Shown here: positions 4,037 to 41,884 of the stretch, in pieces
How the letters are laid out: the number at the start of each line of letters is the position of its first letter
Numbering within the stretch: the first letter of the stretch is position 1
IMG/VR virus record: IMGVR_UViG_3300046000_009335
Coordinates: 1-46,041 of that record
DNA from: a virus
Direction: 5' to 3' (one strand)
DNA length: 46,041 nt
Notes under the pieces: model-generated
What the model saw: the letters and a program-made list of their open reading frames with translations, nothing else
Told to the model about the DNA's origin: nothing
The model's database searches: none
Translations under genes and position numbers: made by a program

Positions 4037-4111
4037 TGGCAGTCGAGGTCGGACTTGCACCGACATCTCTGGCTTAAAAGGCCTGTGCTCTACTCGTTGA
4101 GCTACTCGACT
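4037..4111 (-). tRNA. tRNA-Lys (anticodon TTT)
   Basis: On the minus strand: acceptor AGTCGAG/CTCGACT, D arm GCTC...GAGC, anticodon arm CAGGC-CTTTTAA-GCCAG (one A-A mismatch in the stem), T arm GTCGG-TGCAAGT-CCGAC, discriminator G and an encoded CCA. The anticodon TTT reads Lys AAA/AAG. Phage tRNAs often supplement host pools or replace tRNAs cleaved by host defences. Confidence 0.85.
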
Positions 4112-4116
4112 AAATT

Positions 4117-4190
4117 TGGTAGCGCAGCTCGGAGTCGAACCGAGTATGCGGGGTTATGAGCCCCGAGTGATGCCATTTCACTACCGCGCT
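4117..4190 (-). tRNA. tRNA with CAT anticodon (Met, or Ile2 if modified)
   Basis: On the minus strand: acceptor AGCGCGG/CTGCGCT, D arm GTGA...TCAC, anticodon arm CGGGG-CTCATAA-CCCCG, T arm CTCGG-TTCGACT-CCGAG, discriminator A and encoded CCA. The fold is clean. CAT fits elongator Met, or Ile2 if the C34 is lysidine-modified; the sequence alone does not decide. Confidence 0.85.
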
Positions 4191-6230: not shown

Positions 6231-6263
6231 CAACTAATTTCGAGGGGGTCGCCTCGCGCCCGT

Positions 6264-6388
6264 GCGCGGCAAGCCTATAAGCCTATAAGCTAATAGCACC
6301 TTTAAAAACCTTAGCTTATAAGCTTATAAGCTAGTAAGCTTATAGGCTTACTTAAGCGAATAAGCTTATAAGCGCAGAGGCTTATTTA
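6264..6388 (-). repeat. Early-operon leader element (CTTATAAGC repeat array)
   Basis: An AT-rich array of GCTTATAAGC/GCCTATAAGC units. 6272-6293 can pair with 6311-6332 over about 22 bp (two G-U wobbles in RNA) around a loop containing GGTTTTTAAAGGTGCT. Its core 6264-6310 recurs inverted at 12648-12694 with 3 differences in 47, so it has the same orientation relative to both main operons. It lies between an upstream weak promoter (6388-6416) and the strong one (6202-6230). Possible roles: operator array, antitermination leader, or origin iterons. Confidence 0.8.
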
Positions 6389-6511: not shown

Positions 6512-6880
6512 ATGGACGTCCGGGCCGATTACATGGCATGGAAGAAGAAAAACGGCTACAACCAGCATGAGGTTGCAGCGATACTGGAGTGCTCCAGGCC
6601 CGCGATTGCGAGCTTTGAATCTGGGCGCTCTCCGTACCCGCGTGGGGACACCCTGCTCAAGATGCTGGCGGTACTGTACCCAGAGTGGGATAGCGCCCAT
6701 ACGAGGCGCACAGACCACGTTTGTGTGGGTTGCAAGGGCACCGTACCAGGCCCCCAGCAGGGCGCAAAATACTGCATGCAGTGCGGCCTGCACTTCGGTA
6801 ATGGGTGCTCGAAGTGCGGGCATGTGAATCTCAAGGGGGCCAGGTTCTGCAACGATTGCGGCCATCAAAGCAAGGCTTGA
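6512..6880 (+). CDS. Cro/C1-type HTH regulator with double zinc ribbon, 122 aa
   Basis: ATG at 6512 follows a good ribosome site (CAGGAGGC). Residues about 8-55 (YMAWKKKNGYNQHEVAAILE, then SRPAIASFESGR) form a Cro/C1-family helix-turn-helix. The C-terminal half contains four CxxC knuckles (CVGC, CMQC, CSKC, CNDC), a double zinc ribbon like those of bacterial zinc-ribbon proteins. It is divergent from the early operon with operators on both sides, so it is the best candidate for the lysogeny/lysis regulator. The fusion of HTH and zinc ribbon is unusual for a phage repressor, which normally has a dimerising or self-cleaving C-terminus. Confidence 0.8.
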   Translation: MDVRADYMAWKKKNGYNQHEVAAILECSRPAIASFESGRSPYPRGDTLLKMLAVLYPEWDSAHTRRTDHVCVGCKGTVPGPQQGAKYCMQCGLHFGNGCSKCGHVNLKGARFCNDCGHQSKA

Positions 6881-7021: not shown

Positions 7022-7069
7022 GGGCGATTAGCTCAGTTGGTTAGAGCACCTGTCTTACACACAGGGGGT
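7022..7069 (+). other. Truncated tRNA-Val sequence, probable phage attachment site (attP)
   Basis: The 48 bases match the 5' part of a bacterial tRNA-Val(TAC): acceptor GGGCGAT, D arm AGCTCAGTTGGTTAGAGC and anticodon arm CCTGT-CTTACAC-ACAGG. The T arm and 3' acceptor are missing (no ATCGCCC follows), so it is not a functional tRNA. It lies 63 bases before the integrase start, the usual place for an attP that carries tRNA identity. Exact core limits cannot be read without the host site. Confidence 0.7.
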
Positions 7070-7132
7070 GGTTCAACCGGCTCAGCATCTTCCGCGCCTC
7101 CCTCTCCTCAATGTGACCACAGGAGAGCCGCA

Positions 7133-8212
7133 ATGGACGTATATCGCAGGACAGAAAATGGCGTAGTGACCTACTACGCGAAGCTATTCTCGAATGGCAA
7201 GCTGGTGCGGAGGAGCACTGGCACAGGGAGCAAGCGCGAGGCCGTCATGCGCGCCCGGGCGATGCAGGCGGAGCTGGATGACCAGACAGCGCCCGTCACT
7301 GGCTCCATGACCCATGTCACCGCCTGGTCCATCTACGAGGGCTGGGCGAGCTCCAGGCGCAGGGCGAGGACGGTGGACAACTACCGCATCTTCTGGAACC
7401 AGTTCTGGCTCTGGGCACCCACCCAGAACCTCTACGCGGTGACCCCCGAGATGGCGCTGGCCTGGCGCACTAAGATGATGACCACGCCGTCCCGCTTCGG
7501 TCGTCCGCTTGCCGCACATTCCACCAACGACTACCTTCGGTGCATGAGCACAATCTACGCACAACTCGCCACGCTGGGCTACACAGGGACGAATCCATTT
7601 ACCGCCGAGCAGTGTCCTCGTGAAGCAACAGGCAAGCGCAGGCCCAGCTACTTGACCGCTGCTGAGGTCCAGGTGGCGATGGTCGCCGCCGAGAAGGTGG
7701 GCAGGGACACACACCTGTTCCTCGCGCTCGGAACCTATGCCGGCCTTCGGAAGGGCGAGCTGCTCAACCTGCGTTGGCGTGACGTGGACTGGGACCGCGC
7801 CGGCGATGATGGCGTTCCTATCGGCTGTCTCTACGTGTGGGGCACTGAGGGCCATCAGGTCAAGACTGCGGCCTCGAGTGCCGTAGTGCCCCTACATCCT
7901 GCGCTCAAAGAGCTCCTGAGTCACTACAGGCCCATTCACCTGGACCTGGACGACTACATCGTGCGGCCTGATGTCACTATGCGGAGGCTGAGCGGGTACA
8001 GGTGGGATCCGCGCAAAAGCCTGTCAATCGTAGGCGCTGCTGTGGGCAGGCGCATCAATCCACACATGCTCCGTCACACATTTGCATCACTGCTCGCCCA
8101 GAAGGGGGTCAGCCTCTATAAGATATCCGCCTGGCTTCGCCATGAGAACATCTCCACCACTGAGGTCTACGCCCACTTGTGCCCCGTAGACTCCGAAATC
8201 TCCCGACTGTAA
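7133..8212 (+). CDS. int: Tyrosine-recombinase integrase, 359 aa
   Basis: ATG at 7133 has ribosome site AGGAGAG; the frame is open upstream but only through the tRNA fragment. Residues about 50-165 form the SAM-like core-binding domain. The catalytic domain shows Arg in GLRKGELL (about 206), HMLRHTF (His311, Arg314), WLRHEN (His337) and the nucleophile in TTEVYAH (Tyr346), all expected residues. It should integrate the phage at a host tRNA-Val gene, given the adjacent tRNA fragment. Expression is probably controlled by the operator-bearing promoter at 6877-6918. No excisionase is recognisable nearby. Confidence 0.92.
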   Translation: MDVYRRTENGVVTYYAKLFSNGKLVRRSTGTGSKREAVMRARAMQAELDDQTAPVTGSMTHVTAWSIYEGWASSRRRARTVDNYRIFWNQFWLWAPTQNLYAVTPEMALAWRTKMMTTPSRFGRPLAAHSTNDYLRCMSTIYAQLATLGYTGTNPFTAEQCPREATGKRRPSYLTAAEVQVAMVAAEKVGRDTHLFLALGTYAGLRKGELLNLRWRDVDWDRAGDDGVPIGCLYVWGTEGHQVKTAASSAVVPLHPALKELLSHYRPIHLDLDDYIVRPDVTMRRLSGYRWDPRKSLSIVGAAVGRRINPHMLRHTFASLLAQKGVSLYKISAWLRHENISTTEVYAHLCPVDSEISRL

Positions 8213-8583: not shown

Positions 8584-8595
8584 GAGTGATAGGCA

Positions 8596-8626
8596 AGCCC
8601 CTCGAGAGAGCATCTCGGGGGGCTTT
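8596..8626 (+). terminator. Intrinsic terminator after the 95-aa gene
   Basis: AGCCCCTCGAGA (8596-8607) pairs with 8613-8624 over 12 bp with one G-U, 5-base loop, followed by a short T-run. It closes the rightward regulator/integrase region. Confidence 0.8.
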
Positions 8627-8717: not shown

Positions 8718-8758
8718 CGGCGTGCGTCGATACCTAGCCCGGCTTTGCTTTGGAGTTC
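8718..8758 (+). repeat. Left boundary inverted repeat of accessory module
   Basis: 41 bp beginning CGGCGTGCGTCGATACCTAG match the reverse complement of 12148-12190 with a 2-base gap and about 7 substitutions. A further partial copy follows at about 8763-8795 (GCTATGC-TTTGAAGTTC-TAGGTAT), and TCGATACCTAG/CTAGGTATCGA form a local inverted repeat. Together the two outer copies enclose the leftward module like terminal inverted repeats. Confidence 0.65.
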
Positions 8759-9047
8759 TAGGTATCGATATGCTATGCTTTGAAGTTCTAGGTATGTCAG
8801 CGGGGCGGCGCGTTTGGGCGGGGGCTCGCGGTCGGGGTGGGAAGTCGGGCGGCGCGTTGGTGCTGGGTGCTGGGTTCCGTCTCGGTGCTGGGCGCAAGCT
8901 GGGCGGGCGGCGTCTCGTGGTGCCTGGCGTTAAGCTCCGGGCGGGGTCGATATCGGGGCGGGTCTATACCTTGCCTGCCTGGCGTTTGTTCCTCTGGGGT
9001 CAACGTGGGCGGTCGATATCGGGGGCGGCGTGCCTGGATATGATAAA

Positions 9048-9073
9048 TCCCGCAAGCTGGGCGGCTTGCGGGA
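9048..9073 (-). terminator. Intrinsic terminator of the accessory module
   Basis: On the minus strand TCCCGCAAGC pairs perfectly with GCTTGCGGGA around a 6-base loop and is followed by TTTATC. It lies 31 bases past the last module gene. Confidence 0.8.
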
Positions 9074-9104
9074 CTGTGAAGGGGGGGGCGGTGTGGGCGG
9101 TCGG

Positions 9105-9332
9105 TTACTCCAAGCTATTGCAGGTCAAGCAATCAAGGGCGGCGGTGATTTGTCGCCATGCGGTATCAATGCGGCGGACGGTTTCAAGGTTGGGTGCCTG
9201 GCGTTGCTCCTCGTCAATCCGGGCGTTGACTAAGTAAGCTGCCTCCGTGTCTAGAAGGCTGAGGGCGGCGCCGTAACGGTTCCGGCGGTCTCGGGCGGCT
9301 TCCTGGCGGGCGGTCTCGTTGGGGTCTAACAT
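9105..9332 (-). CDS. Small helical hypothetical protein, 75 aa
   Basis: ATG at 9332 (MLDPNETARQEAARDRR) is preceded by AAGGAG at 9 bases; a TTG further upstream overlaps the previous gene but has no ribosome site. The product is Ala/Arg/Glu-rich and predicted wholly helical. It is the last gene before the module terminator. No family recognised. Confidence 0.65.
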   Translation of the reverse strand: MLDPNETARQEAARDRRNRYGAALSLLDTEAAYLVNARIDEEQRQAPNLETVRRIDTAWRQITAALDCLTCNSLE

Positions 9333-9345
9333 GCGGGAGAGCTCC

Positions 9346-9633
9346 TTAGATAGCAAAACGCGGGGCTTTGCGGGGTTTGGGTTGTAGTGGGTGCGGGCGG
9401 TGATCGTCTGCTGACGGGTCGGTGAGCGTCTCGGGGGTGATATATACGCGGTGGAACTGGTACAGGAACGCGGCGGCGGTGTTATAGGCTGTCAAGCGGG
9501 CGCTGTCGTCTTCTCGGGTCAATCCGGGTCTGTCCTGGATAATGGCAAGCCACAATCGGGCGGCTATCTGGGCGGGGGTCTCTTCGGGGCTGGGCTTAAC
9601 GGTGGCAAGCTTTCTACAGGTGAATACGTTCAT
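9346..9633 (-). CDS. Hypothetical protein, 95 aa
   Basis: Start MNVFTCRKLATVKP at 9633 overlaps the stop of the upstream gene (ATGA at 9630-9633). The middle (AARLWLAIIQDRPGLTREDD, AYNTAAAFLYQF) is helical, and the tail is Pro/Arg/Lys-rich. No family recognised; translational coupling to the cysteine-motif gene suggests linked function. Confidence 0.65.
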   Translation of the reverse strand: MNVFTCRKLATVKPSPEETPAQIAARLWLAIIQDRPGLTREDDSARLTAYNTAAAFLYQFHRVYITPETLTDPSADDHRPHPLQPKPRKAPRFAI

Positions 9634-10439
9634 GCTGCTTTTGCTCCTACTGCGTTCCGGGCTCCTGTGCCATGCGCCACGATTGCGATACTCTTCGCGT
9701 TGAGGGTATTTCCGGCGCACAATCCACACCGGGCGCAAGTCGTCTTGTAATTCATCTCCTTTGAAGCGGGGCAAAGAATTTCTGCGGGGGTCAGTTCGTC
9801 AGTGCGGGCGATAACCCTAAACGTGCGGGCTCCGTCCTTCCAGGCGTCCATTGCTTCGGGCAAGTCCTGCACGCTGCGCATATACAAGGCGGCGTCAAAG
9901 CTGGATCCAAGCGTAAGTGCTTGGTGGGAGTAGGCTGTATGGCCAGTACAATCGGCCAACAGGTTGTCCCAAACATGGCGGGGGACGGCGGCGCCATCGC
10001 CATAGGTGCCGATCCTAACTTCTCGACCGGCACCGGCGGCGCGTATAAGGTCGGGGGCGTTGCTGTAATCGGGGTATTGATGCCGGCGGAGTGCTTTGTA
10101 GACTGCGAGGGGGCCGTGTATCAGGGCGACATAGCAGCCGCGATCGTCTGCATACCCTGAGTCGTTGTCGTTCGGGGTTCCTTTCTGGGGGCACGTTCCG
10201 CAGATTCCAAAATCGAGGCCTGTGCGGTTGGCGGTTATGGGGTCAGCGTCTCGCCTAATGATATAGGTTTGCACGGTGTCGGCGGTCTTGGTGTTGGTCG
10301 TGTGGTGAAGGGCGATAACGGCGATCGGGCTTCCGTCCAATAGTGAGGGGCCGTTGTAGATAATGAGGCCTGTGGGTTTCTTCGGGCGGCGCCTGGCTAA
10401 ATAGGCGGCTTGCATGATGTGGAAGGGGGCTGATAACAT
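9630..10439 (-). CDS. Conserved-type phage protein with two Cys clusters, 269 aa
   Basis: ATG at 10439 follows AAGGAAATCAA. The sequence has the layout of a phage/plasmid hypothetical family I recall: an N-terminal YNGPSLLDGSPIAVIAL segment, CGTCPQKG and a later DDRGCYV, HGPLAVYKAL, then RIGTYGDGAAVP...W, TAYSHQ, ARTFRVI, and a C-terminal CPAS...CARCGLC cluster. The conserved cysteines (at least six) suggest a zinc or iron-sulfur site. Its biochemical role is not known to me. It is the central gene of the accessory module. Confidence 0.7.
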   Translation of the reverse strand: MLSAPFHIMQAAYLARRRPKKPTGLIIYNGPSLLDGSPIAVIALHHTTNTKTADTVQTYIIRRDADPITANRTGLDFGICGTCPQKGTPNDNDSGYADDRGCYVALIHGPLAVYKALRRHQYPDYSNAPDLIRAAGAGREVRIGTYGDGAAVPRHVWDNLLADCTGHTAYSHQALTLGSSFDAALYMRSVQDLPEAMDAWKDGARTFRVIARTDELTPAEILCPASKEMNYKTTCARCGLCAGNTLNAKSIAIVAHGTGARNAVGAKAA

Positions 10440-10472
10440 TTGATTTCCTTAAGCGGTGGCGGTGGAGGTGAA

Positions 10473-10504
10473 GGACGGGCCCTGCCTGCAAGCGGGGCCC
10501 GTCC
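10473..10504. other. 10-bp perfect stem-loop in the 10439/10515 intergenic gap
   Basis: GGACGGGCCC (10473-10482) pairs perfectly with 10495-10504 around a 12-base loop. It lies between two module genes with no U-run on the minus strand, so it may attenuate or stabilise the mRNA rather than terminate. Confidence 0.55.
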
Positions 10505-10514
10505 TGGTGGTGGG

Positions 10515-11168
10515 TTAGGATTTGGGTCGAATGACAACATAATCAGCGCGGGGCTGTCCTGCGCGGGTCTCGGTGACATTGGGGCAGGTGTGGCAGGTGG
10601 CATGCTCGGGGCCGTCCTGGATAGACGGGCACAAGGGGGCGCCAATTTTGCACAGGGGGCTCTGGGCGTCAATCATTCCAGCGCGTAACAGGGCGGCGCG
10701 TTTGCTGTCCTTCGGGAATAGGGGGAAGAAAAAAGCGCAAAATACCGGCTTAATGTGTCGGGTCAGTTTGGCGATACAAGCGGGGGTTCCGTGATATTCA
10801 GGGTCGGGTCCGTGCTCGTGGTAGGCTTTGGCAAGCTGGCGCGCCTGGCGATAGTTGAGGGCGATCGGGCTGGTGCTTGCTCCAAGTCCTGATGGCAAGT
10901 GGGTGATCTTCCATCCGTGTCCAGTGGGCTCGCCGGCTTTGAGCGTGCGGTGAACGGCATAGTTGCCGATTGCGATGGCGTCAAATGGGGCGGGGGCAAG
11001 GTGCTTGGGGTTCTCCATGCGCACCCGAACAATGCACGGGGCGAACTTGTCCCGGGTGCGGTCGTGGTAGTAGGGGGCGTCAAGATAGCGGTCTTCGTGT
11101 GCCTGGCGTTCGGCCAATCCGGGATTAAGCAAAGGGAGAGGGGCGGGGTCGTCGTCGTGGTAGTACAT
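10515..11168 (-). CDS. Hypothetical protein with C-terminal Cys motif, 217 aa
   Basis: ATG at 11168 follows AAGGAG with 8-base spacing. Residues 1-40 are His/Asp/Tyr-rich (YYHDDD, YLDAPYYHDRTRDK). A middle region (SPIALNYRQARQLAKAYHEHGPD) looks helical, and the C-terminus has four or more cysteines (CKIGAPLCPS, CHTCP). I recognise no family. The shared Cys-x2-C-P style with the downstream 269-residue protein, and their adjacency, suggest they act together. Confidence 0.65.
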   Translation of the reverse strand: MYYHDDDPAPLPLLNPGLAERQAHEDRYLDAPYYHDRTRDKFAPCIVRVRMENPKHLAPAPFDAIAIGNYAVHRTLKAGEPTGHGWKITHLPSGLGASTSPIALNYRQARQLAKAYHEHGPDPEYHGTPACIAKLTRHIKPVFCAFFFPLFPKDSKRAALLRAGMIDAQSPLCKIGAPLCPSIQDGPEHATCHTCPNVTETRAGQPRADYVVIRPKS

Positions 11169-11204
11169 TGGGTGTGCTCCTTGTGAAGGGTGAAGGGTGA
11201 AGGG

Positions 11205-11420
11205 TTAACGGTAGTGGCCGTCATTGCAAAGGGTGAGGGGGCGTCTGGAGTCGTCGCTATATCCAACCACTTGGTAAAGGGTGGTTGGGCTCCAAAGATT
11301 GCAATAAGAGACAATCTCAACCTGGCTGAATGTCCAGCGGCACTGTTTAAAGGTCTGAAGGCGGGCAAGCCTGGCGTCTCGGGGGTCTTCAAAGTAGGCG
11401 GCGTCGTTGGTGGTTGGCAT
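11205..11420 (-). CDS. Hypothetical protein, 71 aa
   Basis: ATG at 11420 has ribosome site GGAG 8 bases upstream. The product (MPTTNDAAYFEDPRDARLAR, then WTFSQVEIVSYCNLWSP) is small and soluble. No family recognised. Second gene of the module. Confidence 0.6.
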   Translation of the reverse strand: MPTTNDAAYFEDPRDARLARLQTFKQCRWTFSQVEIVSYCNLWSPTTLYQVVGYSDDSRRPLTLCNDGHYR

Positions 11421-11421
11421 C

Positions 11422-11562
11422 TTATTTACTCCAAAACGTTGAACGGCGGGGGGGCTGGTGCACTTTGCGGCGGTCGATAAGCTCTAACACGATGGTCAGC
11501 AAGATGCCGGACAGGGCGCAAGCGGTTAGGAATAGGGTCAGCTCTAATTGGTCGGGTGTCAT
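11422..11562 (-). CDS. Small membrane protein, 46 aa
   Basis: ATG at 11562 follows AAGGAG with 8-base spacing and ends 2 bases before the next gene. The product (MTPDQLELTLFLTACALSGI...) has one membrane segment of about 22 residues and a short basic tail (IDRRKVHQPPRR). First gene of the accessory module. Function unknown. Confidence 0.65.
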   Translation of the reverse strand: MTPDQLELTLFLTACALSGILLTIVLELIDRRKVHQPPRRSTFWSK

Positions 11563-11757
11563 TTGGTGGGCTCCTTCGTGGTGGTGGTGTGCCTGGCGTC
11601 TCGGGTTTGATGGGTCGTGCGGTGCTCTGGGCGGTGCTCGGGGTCCATTGCTGCCATGATTCGCCATGCGGGGGGGTGTGGTGCCTGCCTGCTTCGTCCT
11701 TCTCATTTCTTAGGCTCGTGTCTTGTCTGATGCAAGGGGGGGCAAACTAACGGGAGA

Positions 11758-11792
11758 AGGTAGGGGCGACCTAGTAGCAGGTGGGGCGACCT
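11758..11792. promoter_or_regulatory. Two AGGT-N6/7-ACCT operator-like sites
   Basis: AGGT-N7-ACCT at 11758-11772 and AGGT-N6-ACCT at 11779-11792, embedded in direct repeats (GGGGCGACCTA), 40-70 bases downstream of the module promoter. The regular spacing of about 21 bp suggests cooperative binding of a repressor. Confidence 0.5.
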
Positions 11793-11830
11793 ATTCAATT
11801 TGTGCGGCGGCTGGTGCCTGCCTTGTCACA

Positions 11831-11859
11831 ATGGTAGCAGGTGCGCGGGGTGCTGTCAA
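11831..11859 (-). promoter_or_regulatory. Promoter of the accessory module
   Basis: On the minus strand TTGACA (11859-11854), 17-bp spacer, TACCAT (11836-11831). It is the only strong promoter pointing into the six leftward genes, which end at the terminator 9048-9073. Confidence 0.75.
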
Positions 11860-12544
11860 GGGAAAAAGTGAGGGGGTGGGTGCACTTTGTTACCGTTTCA
11901 CCGGCAGTGCACATCATATGCATGCGCTAAGTCCTTACATGTATAGACTTACGTCGGCTCAGCTCACTTTCAATGTTAGCTGCTCGGCTGTCCAGCCTGG
12001 CACACCTAATAACATGACACCGGGCACATTGACACCGGCAAGCCTGGCGGAAGGGCTGTATTTATTGGGGTTTCTCGCATGGGTGCACATGTTGTGATAA
12101 CAGGTGATGGGCTCCAGGAGGGGGGTAGATCGGTCTGTCTATGCATTGAAGTTCAAGGCATAGCCAGGCTGGGTATCGACACACCCGCCGGCCATCGAAG
12201 GGGGGCGTCAGGGGGCCAGGCGTGCGCGGATGTAATGTACACTTCCCTTCGCTGTCCTCCCCACTTTTCGAGTTTGCGCAAACCCTTGCGCCGTAAGCAC
12301 TTACGCCTCCTCGCCCCCCACCTACGCCCACTGCGCTCTCCTGCACTCCATCCAGGCTGCAACCCCCAGCGCTGACGCCTCATCCGCGCTGCCGTCCCTG
12401 CCCCGAGCCGAGACTTCTCCGCCCCACCCCCACAAGCCCCCACCCAGAGCTTTCGACGCCTTAGAATCGATCCTGTGAGGCGTGCTGTGCTCCCTGAAAA
12501 AATTCTCCAAAAAAATTCCAGCTACATCGGTATCCCGGTTCAAC
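11860..12544. other. 685-bp non-coding interval with palindromes and strand-composition switch
   Basis: No supported gene. It contains GTGCACT/AGTGCAC (11880-11886/11906-11912), the right boundary repeat, TTTGCGCAAA (12273-12282) and CGTAAG-CA-CTTACG (12292-12305), which adjoins a C-rich plus strand at about 12240-12450. The plus strand is G-rich to the left and C-rich to the right, a skew change of the kind seen at origins. An origin is possible but unproven. Confidence 0.5.
12148..12190 (-). repeat. Right boundary inverted repeat of accessory module
   Basis: 43 bp whose reverse complement begins CGGCGGGTGTGTCGATACCC match 8718-8758. It also holds a local palindrome TTGAA-G-TTCAA inside CTATGC...GCATAG (about 12139-12164). 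Differences from the left copy are mostly transitions. Confidence 0.65.
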
Positions 12545-12573
12545 TTGACATCTGCACACTTTTTGTGTATAAT
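12545..12573 (+). promoter_or_regulatory. Perfect-consensus sigma70 promoter of the late operon
   Basis: TTGACA (12545-12550), 17-bp spacer, TATAAT (12568-12573): both hexamers and spacing are ideal. The spacer carries ACAC-TTTTT-GTGT, a possible operator. A promoter this strong on the late genes of a temperate phage implies control by a repressor or by events in the leader. Confidence 0.85.
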
Positions 12574-12576
12574 CGA

Positions 12577-12694
12577 GCCTATAGGCGGAATCGAGCGAGT
12601 TAGCCTATAAGCTTATAAGCTAATAAGCTTACTAGCTAATAAGCTTGGGTTTTTAAAGGTGCTGTTAGCTTATACGCTTATAGGCTTACCGCGC
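12577..12694 (+). repeat. Late-operon leader element (CTTATAAGC repeat array)
   Basis: Starts just after the late -10. 12648-12694 is the inverted counterpart of 6264-6310 (3 differences in 47). 12601-12623 can pair with 12665-12687 (about 21 of 23), enclosing CTAATAAGCTT repeats and the conserved GGTTTTTAAAGGTGCT. As at the early operon it lies between promoter and first gene, so it would be transcribed as a structured leader. Confidence 0.8.
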
Positions 12695-12718
12695 GCGAGG
12701 CCTCGAGCCGGAGATAGC

Positions 12719-25872: not shown

Positions 25873-26264
25873 TTGAAAAACGTGAGCGCATCAACAACAC
25901 GCGGAAGGTGACCGACGCCATGCGCACGGAACGCCCTGCCCGCCAGGTTGTGGTCAAGACTCATGCAGTGGCCTTCAGCGAGTACGTGATGGTCCCAGAC
26001 CAAGACGGCTTCGCCTTCCGGCACATGGCCCCTGTGGGCTACTACTGCAAGTCCCTGCAGCTCTTCCTGGACAACTGCTCTGGCGCTCGCATCCAGCTCC
26101 GTGTGGGCGATGACGAGTATGTGGAGCGGGATGTTGTTGCTGGGGAGAACACCTTCCAGATTGAGCGGGTGATTCCTGCCGGCACCCGTATCCGGCTCCG
26201 CTTCATCGAAAGCACCACCGCGATGGGGATCTGGATCGCGTGGGTCGGAGAAGCCAGTGCCTGA
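25869..26264 (+). CDS. Hypothetical virion protein, 131 aa
   Basis: ATG overlaps the adaptor stop (ATGA). Basic helical N-terminus (MIEKRERINNTRKVTDAMRT), then a compact beta domain (GDDEYVERDVVAGENTFQIE, TRIRLRFIESTTAMGIWIAW). No family recognised; operon position indicates a tail or neck component. Confidence 0.65.
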   Translation: MIEKRERINNTRKVTDAMRTERPARQVVVKTHAVAFSEYVMVPDQDGFAFRHMAPVGYYCKSLQLFLDNCSGARIQLRVGDDEYVERDVVAGENTFQIERVIPAGTRIRLRFIESTTAMGIWIAWVGEASA

Positions 26265-27828
26265 ACTCGTAATCAAAGAGGGGCTCAGGACGGGCATCCG
26301 TTCCCGGGAGGACAACGAGCGAAACAGTGACCAACTCACCGTGCTCTACAACGCGAAGCCTGGCATTCACGGACTCGTCCAGCACAGCCCTATCAGCTTC
26401 CCCCCCACGCTCTCCTCTGCGATTGCTGGTGCTAGCATCACGGTCAGCCACCCATTCCCTCAGCTATTCAGGGGACAGATGGCAACCTACCTCTTCAGTG
26501 AGACCGGAGTCTGGAGTGTCAATGAAACCAACATGCTCTCCACTGGAACCGTACTCACCGCCCTCACACTCAAGAAGCTGGATGACACCTCTGGAGCTAT
26601 CGCTTCTGGAGGGGGCGCTTGGCAGTTCGCTGACTGTGGTAAATCGTGGTGGGCATTCAACGGAACCACCACCGTCTTCTACGCCGAAGTCGGGGGAGTT
26701 TGGGCAGTTCGAGTAGATACCGCCTTCCAGGTGCCCACCCAGTCCGGCTGTCACTTCAGGGGCCGAGCGCTCTTTGGTGGCTTCGACGAGAACAACTACT
26801 GGAACTCGGTGTGGGATGCCAATATCGCTGGATGGACGGACACCTACATTGTCAACCCGGCTGGTGCCACCATCGCCGGTATCGGCTCCAACTTCGTGAG
26901 CTGGTCCAGCATCGGTGGCGGTGATGTTCTCGGGATGCTCTACCCGGACCTGATGGTCGAGGGGCATGAGAAGTACAGCACGGGTGGGCATAGCGCAACC
27001 AGGCCCATCTGGAACGACTTCCTGGAGCGCAATGAATGCGGCTGGATGCCGATGGACTGGGCAGGGCGCGTGCTCTGCATGAAGCCTCTCGGGGATGCGG
27101 TAGTCGTCTATGGCGACAATGGCATCTCGGCGCTCACGATGGTCAGCTCTCCCGTGCCCACCTTTGGCCTGCAGCCCGTTGCCAAGTTCGGTATCGCTTC
27201 CCGCACTGCGGTTGGTGGTGACGAGAACGGGCACCTCTTCATGGATAACTCCGGCATGCTCTGGGAGCTGGGCACTGACCTGAAGCCCATCCGTCGCGAC
27301 CACCAGGAGAGCTTCCTGCCCTTCGTGGGGGACGACATCTCTATCGTCCACAACCCGCAGATCAAAGAGTTCCACATCACCGGCACTGTCAGCTCGGTTC
27401 GTCGCTGCTACACCCTGACTGAGTCCGGGCTATACCGACACAAGCACGCACCGACCAGCGCCTTCTACCTCTCTGGCGGCATGGTCGGTATCTACGAGAC
27501 CCTCTCTGGCTTCGACACCGTAGAGGTCCGCACGGACACTCTCGACTTCGAGACCCGCGATATCAAGACCATCCACAGCATCCAGCTCGGCTGTACGGTG
27601 ACTTCTCCGCTTAGCTGCAGGATCTTCTACCGGAGCGACGCAAGCGCAGCCTGGTCCAGCACAGCTCTCGTAGCGCTTGACCTGAAGGGCAACGCCGACA
27701 TCCTCGCCTCTGGAGTCGAGTTCCAAATCCAGATCTACGGCCTCGACTACACCGACTTCGAGCGCATCGACTACATCAAACTCCTCTGGCGCGAGCTCGG
27801 GGTCCGCAACTTTAGGGGTTCCGCATGA
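26257..27828 (+). CDS. Nozzle-like tail protein, paralogue 1, 523 aa
   Basis: GTG start at 26257, overlapping the previous gene by 8 bases. A long beta-rich protein with blade-like repeats (GVWSVNE, GAWQFADCGKSWWAFNG, GRALFGGFDENN, VVVYGDNGISAL, GHLFMDNSGMLWELG) as in the beta-propeller nozzle (gp12-type) proteins of podoviruses. It is collinear with the next gene: VLCMKPLGDAVVVYGDNGIS and FETRDIKTIHSIQLG have direct counterparts there. Expected in the tail tube that contacts the adaptor. Confidence 0.65.
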   Translation: MPELVIKEGLRTGIRSREDNERNSDQLTVLYNAKPGIHGLVQHSPISFPPTLSSAIAGASITVSHPFPQLFRGQMATYLFSETGVWSVNETNMLSTGTVLTALTLKKLDDTSGAIASGGGAWQFADCGKSWWAFNGTTTVFYAEVGGVWAVRVDTAFQVPTQSGCHFRGRALFGGFDENNYWNSVWDANIAGWTDTYIVNPAGATIAGIGSNFVSWSSIGGGDVLGMLYPDLMVEGHEKYSTGGHSATRPIWNDFLERNECGWMPMDWAGRVLCMKPLGDAVVVYGDNGISALTMVSSPVPTFGLQPVAKFGIASRTAVGGDENGHLFMDNSGMLWELGTDLKPIRRDHQESFLPFVGDDISIVHNPQIKEFHITGTVSSVRRCYTLTESGLYRHKHAPTSAFYLSGGMVGIYETLSGFDTVEVRTDTLDFETRDIKTIHSIQLGCTVTSPLSCRIFYRSDASAAWSSTALVALDLKGNADILASGVEFQIQIYGLDYTDFERIDYIKLLWRELGVRNFRGSA

Positions 27829-29765
27829 AAGAGTTTAACTTCCTGATCGACAAGGCCCTCGTCGCTGGTCAGCACACCGAGACCATCGGGGCCCGCAACC
27901 GGGACGTGCTGGTGACCGCCAAGAATATGCGGCCCACTGAGTACGGACTGGCCTTCAACAAGGTCGTCAACGAGTCCCTTGTCAGCCCTCCCGCCACCGC
28001 GTGGCCCTATCCCCAGCTCTTCAAGGGCAAGAGCTCCTCTCTCCTTGTGGCCGAGCAGGCTGTCTACACCGTGAGCGAATCTACGTGGGCGCTCACCCAG
28101 AGCAAGGTGTATGACCTCTCTGAGATTCAGGCACCCACATCCTCCACCATCGTCACCAATGGCACCTTCACTGGCGCGTCCACTGGCTGGACGCTGGGCT
28201 CTGGCTGGTCCTATTCCGCCAATAAGCTGGTCGGTACTGGGGTCACTGCGGGCGCTGCCGCGACTCAGGCGAACGCCGCTCAGGCTGGCGCAAAGATGGA
28301 GGCCAACACGCTCTACCGGATTACGGTGGATATCTCCACCAGTGACCTCGTGGGCAGTCTGTTCCTGACCTGCGGCAGTGCGACCAGTGACTACTTCTCC
28401 ACCGTCGAAACCCACACCTTTGACCTCTACTCGACGACCGCTGGAGACATCGCCCTGAAGTCCACCGACGGGTTCACCGGCACGGTAGACAACATCACGG
28501 TGAAGAAGATTGCTGAAGCCTCCATCCCCACTGGCGGTGGCGCGTGGCAGTTCGTTGACTTTCGTGGCGTGTGGTTCCTCCTCAAGTCGAACTGTATGAT
28601 TGCCAAGCTCCCCTACTACTCCGACAACCGCCTGGTTGCGATTACCTCCAGCAGCGACGACTTCGCCTGTGTGGCCGGAGAGAACCTGAACAACCGGCTC
28701 TTTCTCGGCGGCATCACCGCTCCGACCCTGCTTGCCAGCGCCAACTTCGTTGAGGCTTGGAAGGCATGGGTGGAGAACAGCTCCGACTGGTCCGACGAAC
28801 TCACCTACGCGGACATGACCCTGCGCACCAATGTGGTGATGTACTCCACCCGCGTAGGCGGTGACGTGTACTGGCCGTTCATCTTCGAGATGGCGCTACT
28901 GGGGCTCCCCCACCGCACCACCGCTACCATCGTCGCGGACCTCAAAGCGAACTATATCGACTGGATCCGCAAGGGCGAGCTTGGCTTCATCCCCCTTCAG
29001 CATCAGGGCTCCGTGCTCTGCCTGAAGCGGCTTGGCAGCTCGATTGTGGCGTACTGCGCCGATGGCGTCAGTATCATCTCTGCGCGTGAGCAGCGCGGCT
29101 TCCGGGCTGTTCCCGTGCATGGTGCAGGGATTGCCTCCAAGTGTGCGGTGAGTGGTGACGACAGCCGGCACCTCTTCCTGGATACCAACAACGTCCTCTG
29201 GGCGCTCACTCCCGACGGCGCACTGAAGCGCATGGTCGGCACGGGCACCTTCAACGCGATGGTCACCGCTGAAGCAACCAACCCCATCGTGGGCAACTAC
29301 GACCCAGAAGAGCAGGAATACTACCTTTGCTCCGACCTCGAGGGATACATCCATACCCGCACTGGGCTGGGTGAAATCACGAAGCTGCCGACCTCCTTTG
29401 TTGTTGCTGGCAGCGGCCTGGTTGGTGTCGTCGAGGACTTGGGTACGCCCAACATCGAGGTGGAGACCGAGACCTTCGACATGGGCATGCGCGCACTGAA
29501 GACGATTCACAGTATCGCAATCGGCTATCAGGACATCACCAGCCTTCAGGTTGTGGTGCGCTACCGATACGACGACACCCCCACCTGGAGGGAGAGTCCG
29601 GCCTTTACGGTCAACGCGGACTCCATTGCGGTTCCCCTCTTCACCGCGAAGGACTTCCGGCTCAAGTTCACCGGAGTGCCAGGCACCGCTGCGAAGATCG
29701 ACTACATCGACGTGGCGTACCAGATCTCCGACAAGCGGAACATTCGGAGCGCGTATGAGCTTTAA
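27825..29765 (+). CDS. Nozzle-like tail protein, paralogue 2 with inserted domain, 646 aa
   Basis: ATG overlaps the previous stop (ATGA). Collinear with the upstream paralogue (VLCLKRLGSSIVAYCADGVS, RHLFLDTNNVLWALT, RALKTIHSIAIGY). At residues about 103-226 it has an insertion absent from the paralogue: NGTFTGASTGWTLGSGWSYS..., ending FTGTVDNITVKK. That pattern is typical of carbohydrate-binding jelly-roll modules in phage and bacterial glycan-binding proteins. It may add surface-polysaccharide binding to a tail tube protein. Confidence 0.65.
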   Translation: MKEFNFLIDKALVAGQHTETIGARNRDVLVTAKNMRPTEYGLAFNKVVNESLVSPPATAWPYPQLFKGKSSSLLVAEQAVYTVSESTWALTQSKVYDLSEIQAPTSSTIVTNGTFTGASTGWTLGSGWSYSANKLVGTGVTAGAAATQANAAQAGAKMEANTLYRITVDISTSDLVGSLFLTCGSATSDYFSTVETHTFDLYSTTAGDIALKSTDGFTGTVDNITVKKIAEASIPTGGGAWQFVDFRGVWFLLKSNCMIAKLPYYSDNRLVAITSSSDDFACVAGENLNNRLFLGGITAPTLLASANFVEAWKAWVENSSDWSDELTYADMTLRTNVVMYSTRVGGDVYWPFIFEMALLGLPHRTTATIVADLKANYIDWIRKGELGFIPLQHQGSVLCLKRLGSSIVAYCADGVSIISAREQRGFRAVPVHGAGIASKCAVSGDDSRHLFLDTNNVLWALTPDGALKRMVGTGTFNAMVTAEATNPIVGNYDPEEQEYYLCSDLEGYIHTRTGLGEITKLPTSFVVAGSGLVGVVEDLGTPNIEVETETFDMGMRALKTIHSIAIGYQDITSLQVVVRYRYDDTPTWRESPAFTVNADSIAVPLFTAKDFRLKFTGVPGTAAKIDYIDVAYQISDKRNIRSAYEL

Positions 29766-40611: not shown

Positions 40612-40886
40612 TATGTCTCTTGGAGGCTACCGACTATCGGGCGGAAGCCCTCCTTGCATCTTGAGTTGAGTCCGAAGTGGCGGCGGAGCTGGGCAACGCT
40701 CATACCCTTGTCTTCCTCCTCGACCTGCTTCGCTTGCCACTCTCGCTGATATTTACGCCGCGCATCCAGGTTGGCGTAGTAGCTGCCGCGCTGCCGGCAT
40801 GCGTCCGTGCAGTGCCGCTTGTTTCCGTGCGCGTCGAGGTTGAGCAGCTTGTCGCAGTTGGCGCACCGTCGAAGGCCATCACTCAT
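40611..40886 (-). CDS. Small zinc-ribbon protein, 91 aa
   Basis: ATG at 40886 shares bases with the RNA ligase stop (TGATG). N-terminal zinc site CANC...CTDAC (CxxC-x16-CxxxC) with a basic helix (ARRKYQREWQAKQ) and a C-terminal helix. Such small zinc proteins often bind nucleic acid. It is the last gene of the leftward operon, following RNA ligase. Confidence 0.7.
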   Translation of the reverse strand: MSDGLRRCANCDKLLNLDAHGNKRHCTDACRQRGSYYANLDARRKYQREWQAKQVEEEDKGMSVAQLRRHFGLNSRCKEGFRPIVGSLQET

Positions 40887-41884
40887 CAGTTATCCTCCGT
40901 CTGGTCTCGGTTGGCCCGCTCGTGATAGTCCACACTGACGAAGCGGGCGATGCGGCGGGTTGGGCCGTAGGCGGTGGCGACGATGCCCTCGCGCCCCTTG
41001 AAGGGTTCCTTGATAAGCTCTGGTTCACAGAGGGTGGTCGGCCCATCTACCATCGACATGATGGTCTTCTCGTCCCACAGGCCAGCGTAAAGCACTGGCA
41101 CGGTGGGGATGTTGAAGTGCTGGAAGATGTGCGTCTTGGTGCTCACGTCGACGTACCTGTGATTGATGACCAGGTCGAACGCCGCCCATGTGGGGTAGTC
41201 CCTGCCGTAGCGCATGTCCTGGATGTTGCCTCCGAAGATTTCCCCGAAGAGGATAACATTCGCATCGCCGTTCTGCTGGCTTACCTGCTCCAGCATGCGG
41301 ACGACATCGTCGTTCTGGAGCGGCATTGCGTAGAGCGCGCCCTCAGTGACCGTGCGCTGGGTGTTGTGGCTACCGGCGACGAACTTGCCCTCGATGATGC
41401 CTACCCGGAAGTTCGTCCCGTGAATCTTCTCGGTGACGTGGACTCGGTCCCCTTCTTTGAAGACGGCCTGTTGCTCCGCCCAGTGGCCCAGCTTGGCGTA
41501 GCGGGTGAATGCCGGCAGCTCATGCACCTGGTCGCCAGTGATGGTCTTCACGGGCGGCTCGTACTTCGTCAGGCCGAAGTCCCCATCTGGGTCGGAGCCC
41601 ATGTAGCCATCGGGCAGGGGAATCAGAGCGCCGAAGCTGGCCTGTCCGCGCAGCCTGGTGGCACGTACGCGCTCTCCCTTCTCGGTGGTCTGGGTATATG
41701 CATCGATACCCCAGCGCACCGCCTGGCCCAGCGGGACCAGCGTGTCGGGCGGCAGGAAGAGGCGTCTGTCCCCAACCCTGATACCCTTCTGGGACGCGCA
41801 CCACCAGCCGCCGGTGCGCACCATGTCCAGGCGGTCAGCATTCGGGTGAGGAATTACTTCTTCGATTTCTACGATGGAGGCCAT
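40886..41884 (-). CDS. RNA ligase (Rnl-type nucleotidyltransferase), 332 aa
   Basis: ATG at 41884 follows AAGGAATCAGC. Motif I is EKIHGTN with nucleophile Lys153; ILFGEIFGG supplies motif III-type residues; REGIVA is motif IV. The N-terminal 110 residues (IVEIEEVIPHPNADRLDMVR, VGDRRLFLPPDTLVPLG) match the OB-like extension of the Rnl5/TIGR02306 group. Motif V usually has a Lys (K-S/V); here the corresponding place reads RIARFVSVDY, with Arg. It should reseal broken RNA, for example tRNAs cut by host defence nucleases. Next to a kinase-like gene. Confidence 0.85.
   Translation of the reverse strand: MASIVEIEEVIPHPNADRLDMVRTGGWWCASQKGIRVGDRRLFLPPDTLVPLGQAVRWGIDAYTQTTEKGERVRATRLRGQASFGALIPLPDGYMGSDPDGDFGLTKYEPPVKTITGDQVHELPAFTRYAKLGHWAEQQAVFKEGDRVHVTEKIHGTNFRVGIIEGKFVAGSHNTQRTVTEGALYAMPLQNDDVVRMLEQVSQQNGDANVILFGEIFGGNIQDMRYGRDYPTWAAFDLVINHRYVDVSTKTHIFQHFNIPTVPVLYAGLWDEKTIMSMVDGPTTLCEPELIKEPFKGREGIVATAYGPTRRIARFVSVDYHERANRDQTEDN

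Follow-up and report, generated by a model that had tools for sequence, protein, structure and literature searches.

Morons are accessory transcription units of temperate phages (PMC4378225), and mycobacteriophage mobile elements (MPMEs) are found at positions that vary between near-identical genomes (PMC3203893). Here we describe a locus that can be compared with both: a module of six leftward genes lying between two inverted repeats, R1 and R2, in a viral DNA of 46,041 nucleotides (IMG/VR record IMGVR_UViG_3300046000_009335, positions 1 to 46,041, hereafter the window). With confidence that stands about even, we take this segment for a moron-like operon, accessory to a temperate phage of podovirus type, with R1 and R2 as paired clusters of putative binding sites. 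An operon of distinct composition set between matched site clusters provides a concrete case for separating recombination-edge from regulatory readings of such repeats.

The anatomy of the module is that of a separate transcription unit. As the original prediction held, a consensus promoter, six leftward genes and a terminator are present between the repeats (Table 1), and no transposase or recombinase gene was found between R1 and R2. Each of the six open reading frames (ORFs) is preceded by a Shine-Dalgarno-like sequence, and when gene starts were picked by these sequences the best starts yielded products of 46, 71, 217, 269, 95 and 75 amino acids (genes 1 to 6), three of the six being shorter than the longest ORFs. 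Judged from the sequence alone, the module thus has the promoter and terminator of its own that characterize a moron, and host sigma-70 RNA polymerase would be expected to start at 11859-11831, transcribe all six genes leftward and stop at the 9048-9073 hairpin, with no dependence on either lytic operon. Translation of gene 5 is likely coupled to that of gene 4, given that the start codon of the former overlaps the stop of the latter, and a second hairpin (8595-8625) probably insulates the rightward integrase unit from the convergent module. No replication, packaging or integration gene was found inside the module, no RNA families were detected within it, and the 840-bp spacer at 11706-12545 holds no hidden genes with coding-like codon usage. 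This apparently non-coding stretch switches from G-rich to strongly C-rich at approximately 12237.

Base composition also sets the module apart, both from its neighbours and from every other gene class. The frequency of G at third codon positions is 0.17 in module genes, compared with 0.31-0.33 in lytic genes of both strands and with 0.37 in those for the regulator and integrase; because the leftward lytic genes share the strand of the module, its bias is not a strand effect. Likewise, proline makes up 7.8% of module proteins versus 4.4-5.2% elsewhere, and a single G-rich block of approximately 4 kb far exceeds all others in the genome, scoring 283 where the next block scores 40. The predicted difference from the flanks was therefore borne out, although its edges follow the repeats only roughly, starting at approximately 8209 and, according to the penalty applied, ending at either 11882 or 12237. 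A composition unlike that of adjacent phage genes is a further property of morons, and the module was probably acquired from another replicon.

Gene 4 encodes the largest product of the module and the sole one with relatives. In a profile search it matches phrog_2554 with E = 6.5e-57, and its score against Pfam DUF7227, 23.3, falls just under the cut-off of 27; seven cysteines are invariant in a 44-sequence alignment of the family, and this cysteine-rich product is probably metal- or iron-sulphur-binding. A confident structure model (predicted local distance difference test, pLDDT, 91) matches viral DUF7227 entries in BFVD and, more weakly, Gene product 88 entries, with no matching solved structure (best E 0.099). 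Phage records include 148 relatives, those listed often lying close to an end of the genome, and IMG/VR includes at least 590 (590 of the first 600 candidates confirmed), and the family is present on six plasmids. Unrelated phages share the family, whose genes frequently sit near a genome end or amid small ORFs, and a literature search under DUF7227/GP88-type family names returned no paper naming it. Placing this widespread, uncharacterized family in a temperate phage accessory unit provides a handle on its function. The gene 4 product and its small partners would most likely act on the host, during early infection or in the lysogenic state.

The remaining five proteins are orphans. Genes 2, 3 and 5 have no relative in phages, and gene 3 has none in phages, plasmids, IMG/VR or GTDB genomes; a proposed paralogy of gene 3 with gene 4 was rejected on profile comparison (1.6% probability), and a single-sequence model of its fold was useless (pLDDT 34). 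Gene 6 shows a very weak match to PF07232 (Rep-like) that lies below the cut-off (E = 0.09) and is not significant. Searches for relatives, suggested in the original prediction for the repeats and for the proteins starting at 10439 and 11168, thus succeeded for the first protein (gene 4) and found nothing for the second (gene 3) or the repeats. Similarly, the proposal of a host-interaction island stands in its moron-like part, and its defence part receives no support, as none of the six module proteins matched a PADLOC model at E <= 0.1.

The imperfect inverted repeats, first placed at 8718-8758 and 12148-12190, proved real, with arms of 47 nt (R1a and R2 in Table 1) that match at 36 of 47 positions and are 77% complementary. 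The ungapped score of the pair is 25, a value reached by none of 60 dinucleotide-shuffled versions of this 4.2-kb stretch (mean 13.6, maximum 21). The left arm is doubled, a feature absent from the original list: its inner part, 8742-8765, is repeated in tandem at 8772-8795 with a spacing of exactly 30 bp. R2 has a 9-7-9 layout whose GAAGTTC middle is common to R1b. A 12-bp half-site, TTCWADGYATMG, occurs as four exact copies in 46 kb, every one within R1/R2; the motif having been derived from the repeats themselves, this count describes confinement rather than an independent discovery. R1 and R2, and with them the half-sites, sit in the two spacers on either side of the operon. On these grounds R1 and R2 may represent two clusters of 25-bp sites for one putative dimeric DNA-binding protein recognizing TTCWADGYATMG, and their simplest role would be regulation or looping of the unit, or the marking of old recombination edges, rather than transposition. 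In a search elsewhere, a 16-mer of the repeat, TTGAAGTTCTAGGTAT, was found in 72 viral contigs, many of which carry the extension TTTGAAGTTCTAGGTATG that reads FEVLGM in an assumed frame; these were taken as coding or chance matches.

The module lies between two lytic operons, in a lysogeny region that also contains a zinc-ribbon XRE-type regulator and an integrase preceded by a tRNA-derived candidate phage attachment site (attP). Unusually, the tRNA part that this candidate carries is the 5' and not the 3' one, and a candidate crossover lies near the anticodon loop; with such a site just upstream of the likely integrase start, R1/R2 are probably not attP. The whole regulator-integrase-module region is bounded by an outer inverted pair (6261-6350/12608-12697; 90 nt, 86%) that is stronger than R1/R2 and was overlooked in the original prediction. 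Two divergent lytic promoters adjoin the arrays: the leftward one at 6230-6202, next to the left array, agrees with consensus at 11 of 12 positions, and the promoter of the rightward operon (12545-12573) is a perfect 12/12 sigma-70 consensus with 17-bp spacing. From their sequence, the AT-rich arrays forming the outer pair look like operator or iteron arrays and possibly serve the XRE regulator. The control region thus contains two inverted pairs, R1/R2 being nested within the other, and in such a setting R1/R2 would serve more naturally in regulation or architecture than as transposon ends.

Table 1. Features of the module and the surrounding control region.
Feature	Coordinates	Strand	Basis and remarks
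Left AT-rich iterated array	6261..6385	.	AAGCTTATA units; near leftward promoter 6230-6202
Regulator, XRE-type helix-turn-helix with C-terminal zinc ribbons	6512..6880	+	In the lysogeny region
Truncated tRNA-Val(TAC)-like sequence, candidate attP	7022..7084	+	Rfam tRNA 28.3 bits, cut-off 29; directly upstream of int
Tyrosine integrase	7133..8212	+	Likely start ATG 7133 with AGGAG
Probable terminator of rightward integrase unit	8595..8625	+	Hairpin with short T run
R1a, left boundary repeat	8722..8768	+	Arm of 47 nt that also forms a perfect dyad of 11 bp, TCGATACCTAG-20-CTAGGTATCGA
R1b, second copy of 25-bp dyad-like site	8772..8796	+	CTATGCTTT GAAGTTC TAGGTATGT; 30 bp from R1a
Module terminator hairpin	9048..9073	-	Perfect stem of 10 bp with a modest T tail, at operon end; z = -6.4
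Gene 6, 75-aa (amino acid) orphan	9105..9332	-	Homology searches
Gene 5, 95-aa orphan	9346..9633	-	Start codon overlaps gene 4 stop
Gene 4, 269-aa DUF7227/GP88-like protein (PHROG 2554)	9630..10439	-	Invariant C80xxC83, C102, C223, C235xxC238xxC241
Gene 3, 217-aa Pro/His-rich orphan, C-terminal CxxC	10515..11168	-	Homology searches
Gene 2, 71-aa orphan	11205..11420	-	No phage relative
Gene 1, 46-aa orphan, one likely membrane helix	11422..11562	-	Strong Shine-Dalgarno; helix read by eye
Module promoter	11831..11859	-	TTGACA-17-TACCAT, 10/12, extended -10, sigma-70-like
R2, right boundary repeat	12138..12184	-	Inverted relative to R1; 25-bp palindrome CTATGCATT GAAGTTC AAGGCATAG at 12139-12163
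Right AT-rich iterated array	12576..12697	.	Inverted copy of left array; just after rightward promoter 12545-12573

Four structural relatives that appear complete, namely Desulfofustis phage LS06-2018-MD01 and three contigs from metagenome-assembled genomes (MAGs; full sequences of 48-50 kb), have neither the regulator and integrase nor the module and repeats, in keeping with an accessory block. These genomes are only approximately 40% identical and lack both neighbouring units as well as the block; they are too distant to show a site lacking exactly 8.7-12.2 kb, or insertion between adjacent genes as would be sought for a moron. Several observations weigh against the moron-like reading. No close relative of the genome, with or without the module, was found; five of the six module proteins are orphans, which makes the function of the module a guess; approximately 250-380 bp separate R1 and R2 from the closest promoter or terminator of the module, a long distance for operators of the classical type; and the left composition edge falls at the integrase stop (8209) rather than at R1, in a module whose composition could stem from a cause other than foreign origin. 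Searches of GTDB genomes for prophage relatives returned 12 distant loci and none that was close, and the contig IMGVR_UViG_3300046028_007472, 100% identical over the compared stretch, begins at 12586 inside the right AT-rich array, probably at an assembly break in the repeat, and does not cover the module.

The main competing explanation, to which we give a clearly smaller though appreciable chance, is that the segment was never acquired but belongs to the phage itself as an immediate-early region for host takeover, the first to be transcribed by host RNA polymerase, its composition reflecting different selection on early genes. Such a role would suit the location of PHROG 2554 genes, which in autographiviruses and larger phages lie close to the ends of the genome, the position of the gene among small ORFs on the same genome side as integrase and RNA polymerase in Caulobacter phage S2B and Mycobacterium phage jiawei, and a strong promoter without obvious adjoining operators. 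It fits poorly with codon usage sharply unlike that of another pre-late unit, the leftward replication operon, and with convergence on int and possession of a separate terminator, both unusual for a leading early operon; moreover, only 1 of 80 IMG/VR loci pairs a gene 4 relative with a recognizable integrase or T7-type RNA polymerase. Related phages with the module genes outside such repeats or mixed in with other early genes had been named in advance as counting against a bounded module, and this was found for gene 4 only: its relatives lie among small ORFs, often near genome ends, and at none of 25 loci does the best inverted repeat straddling the gene (20) equal that seen here (25).

That the element is mobile, invertible or a satellite is conceivable but, apart from the repeats, nothing positive speaks for it. 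The originally proposed mobile cassette, a non-autonomous transposon or the like ending at R1 and R2, is improbable. In its favour, the repeats are significant, stand at both ends of the block as the terminal inverted repeats of a transposon or miniature inverted-repeat transposable element (MITE) would, and have TG...CA-like termini, and the several putative protein-binding half-sites at each end could be likened to Tn7- or Mu-type ends, which carry several such sites. Yet the arms are only 77% alike, there is no transposase, and no flanking word of 5-9 bp common to both repeats, as a target-site duplication would leave, occurs within 8 bp of their ends, where one 4-bp word was the only match; no further copy of the repeat was found among the 2.9 million viral contigs of IMG/VR (two longer exact degenerate patterns, zero matches), gene 4 relatives lack a repeat as strong, and the composition edge is not at R1. 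Equally doubtful is that R1 and R2 are recombination or end sites of a new type of phage-borne cassette, moved or flipped by a recombinase acting in trans; if true, this would account for the arrival of multi-gene morons in phage genomes, the entry of accessory operons having been described as unexplained (PMC4378225). Inversion of the R1-R2 segment by a tyrosine recombinase, perhaps the product of the adjoining integrase gene, so as to switch the direction of the module, is more improbable still. Although the layout of R2 resembles a tyrosine-recombinase core and shares its middle with R1b, the integrase has its own candidate attP with different core sequences, inversion sites are normally near-identical, and with the promoter and all genes inside, inversion would switch nothing obvious. 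Least credible of all is a captured satellite or plasmid-like replicon, also raised originally: the distinct composition, the occurrence of the gene 4 family on plasmids and the Rep-like match of gene 6 could be cited for it, but that match is not significant, gene 3 has no plasmid relative, and the module provides no gene for replication, packaging or integration.

The genome itself is assigned by its terminase, portal and major capsid proteins to the PaP2/119X-like podoviruses. The first 141 bases of the record are identical to the last 141 (1-141/45901-46041), indicating a complete circular assembly of 45.9 kb. No near relative at the DNA level was found among known phages; LS06-2018-MD01, the closest named genome, shares approximately 35-40% identity in the terminase, portal and major capsid proteins. 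One lytic operon runs leftward from approximately 6.1 kb through the coordinate origin to 40.9 kb and encodes Sak4-like, PD-(D/E)XK nuclease, HNH, RuvC-like, DnaB-like and RNA ligase proteins, and the other (12.7-40.6 kb, rightward) comprises the virion genes. The RNA ligase gene (40886-41884) occurs together with tRNA-Lys and tRNA-Met genes (4037-4190), a pairing suggestive of tRNA repair that would counter anticodon nucleases of the host. In the virion region, the adjacent proteins at 26257-27828 and 27825-29765 are paralogues of approximately 28% identity, a tandem duplication.

Compared with described systems, the locus shares with MPMEs and other small phage transposons inverted repeats that bound a segment of a phage genome; MPMEs, however, are far smaller and encode one small protein, and here no duplication, second copy or variable position was seen. 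With the PaP2/119X-like podoviruses and LS06-2018-MD01 the genome has in common the terminase, portal and major capsid proteins (approximately 25-45% identity) in the same order, whereas the regulator, integrase, module and repeats are absent from LS06-2018-MD01 and the three MAG contigs. The integrase-containing early region of Autographiviridae such as S2B and jiawei likewise has small orphan ORFs that surround a DUF7227/GP88-like gene, and an integrase in that same genome part; there, the genes are codirectional with int and RNA polymerase, whereas the present module belongs to a PaP2-like phage and is convergent to int, and S2B, where this was tested, has no boundary repeat as strong. Morons usually consist of one gene, in contrast to the six found here together with a significant flanking inverted repeat, but the module is like them in its own promoter and terminator, in a composition unlike that of its neighbours, and in its site between phage functional blocks beside the lysogeny genes.

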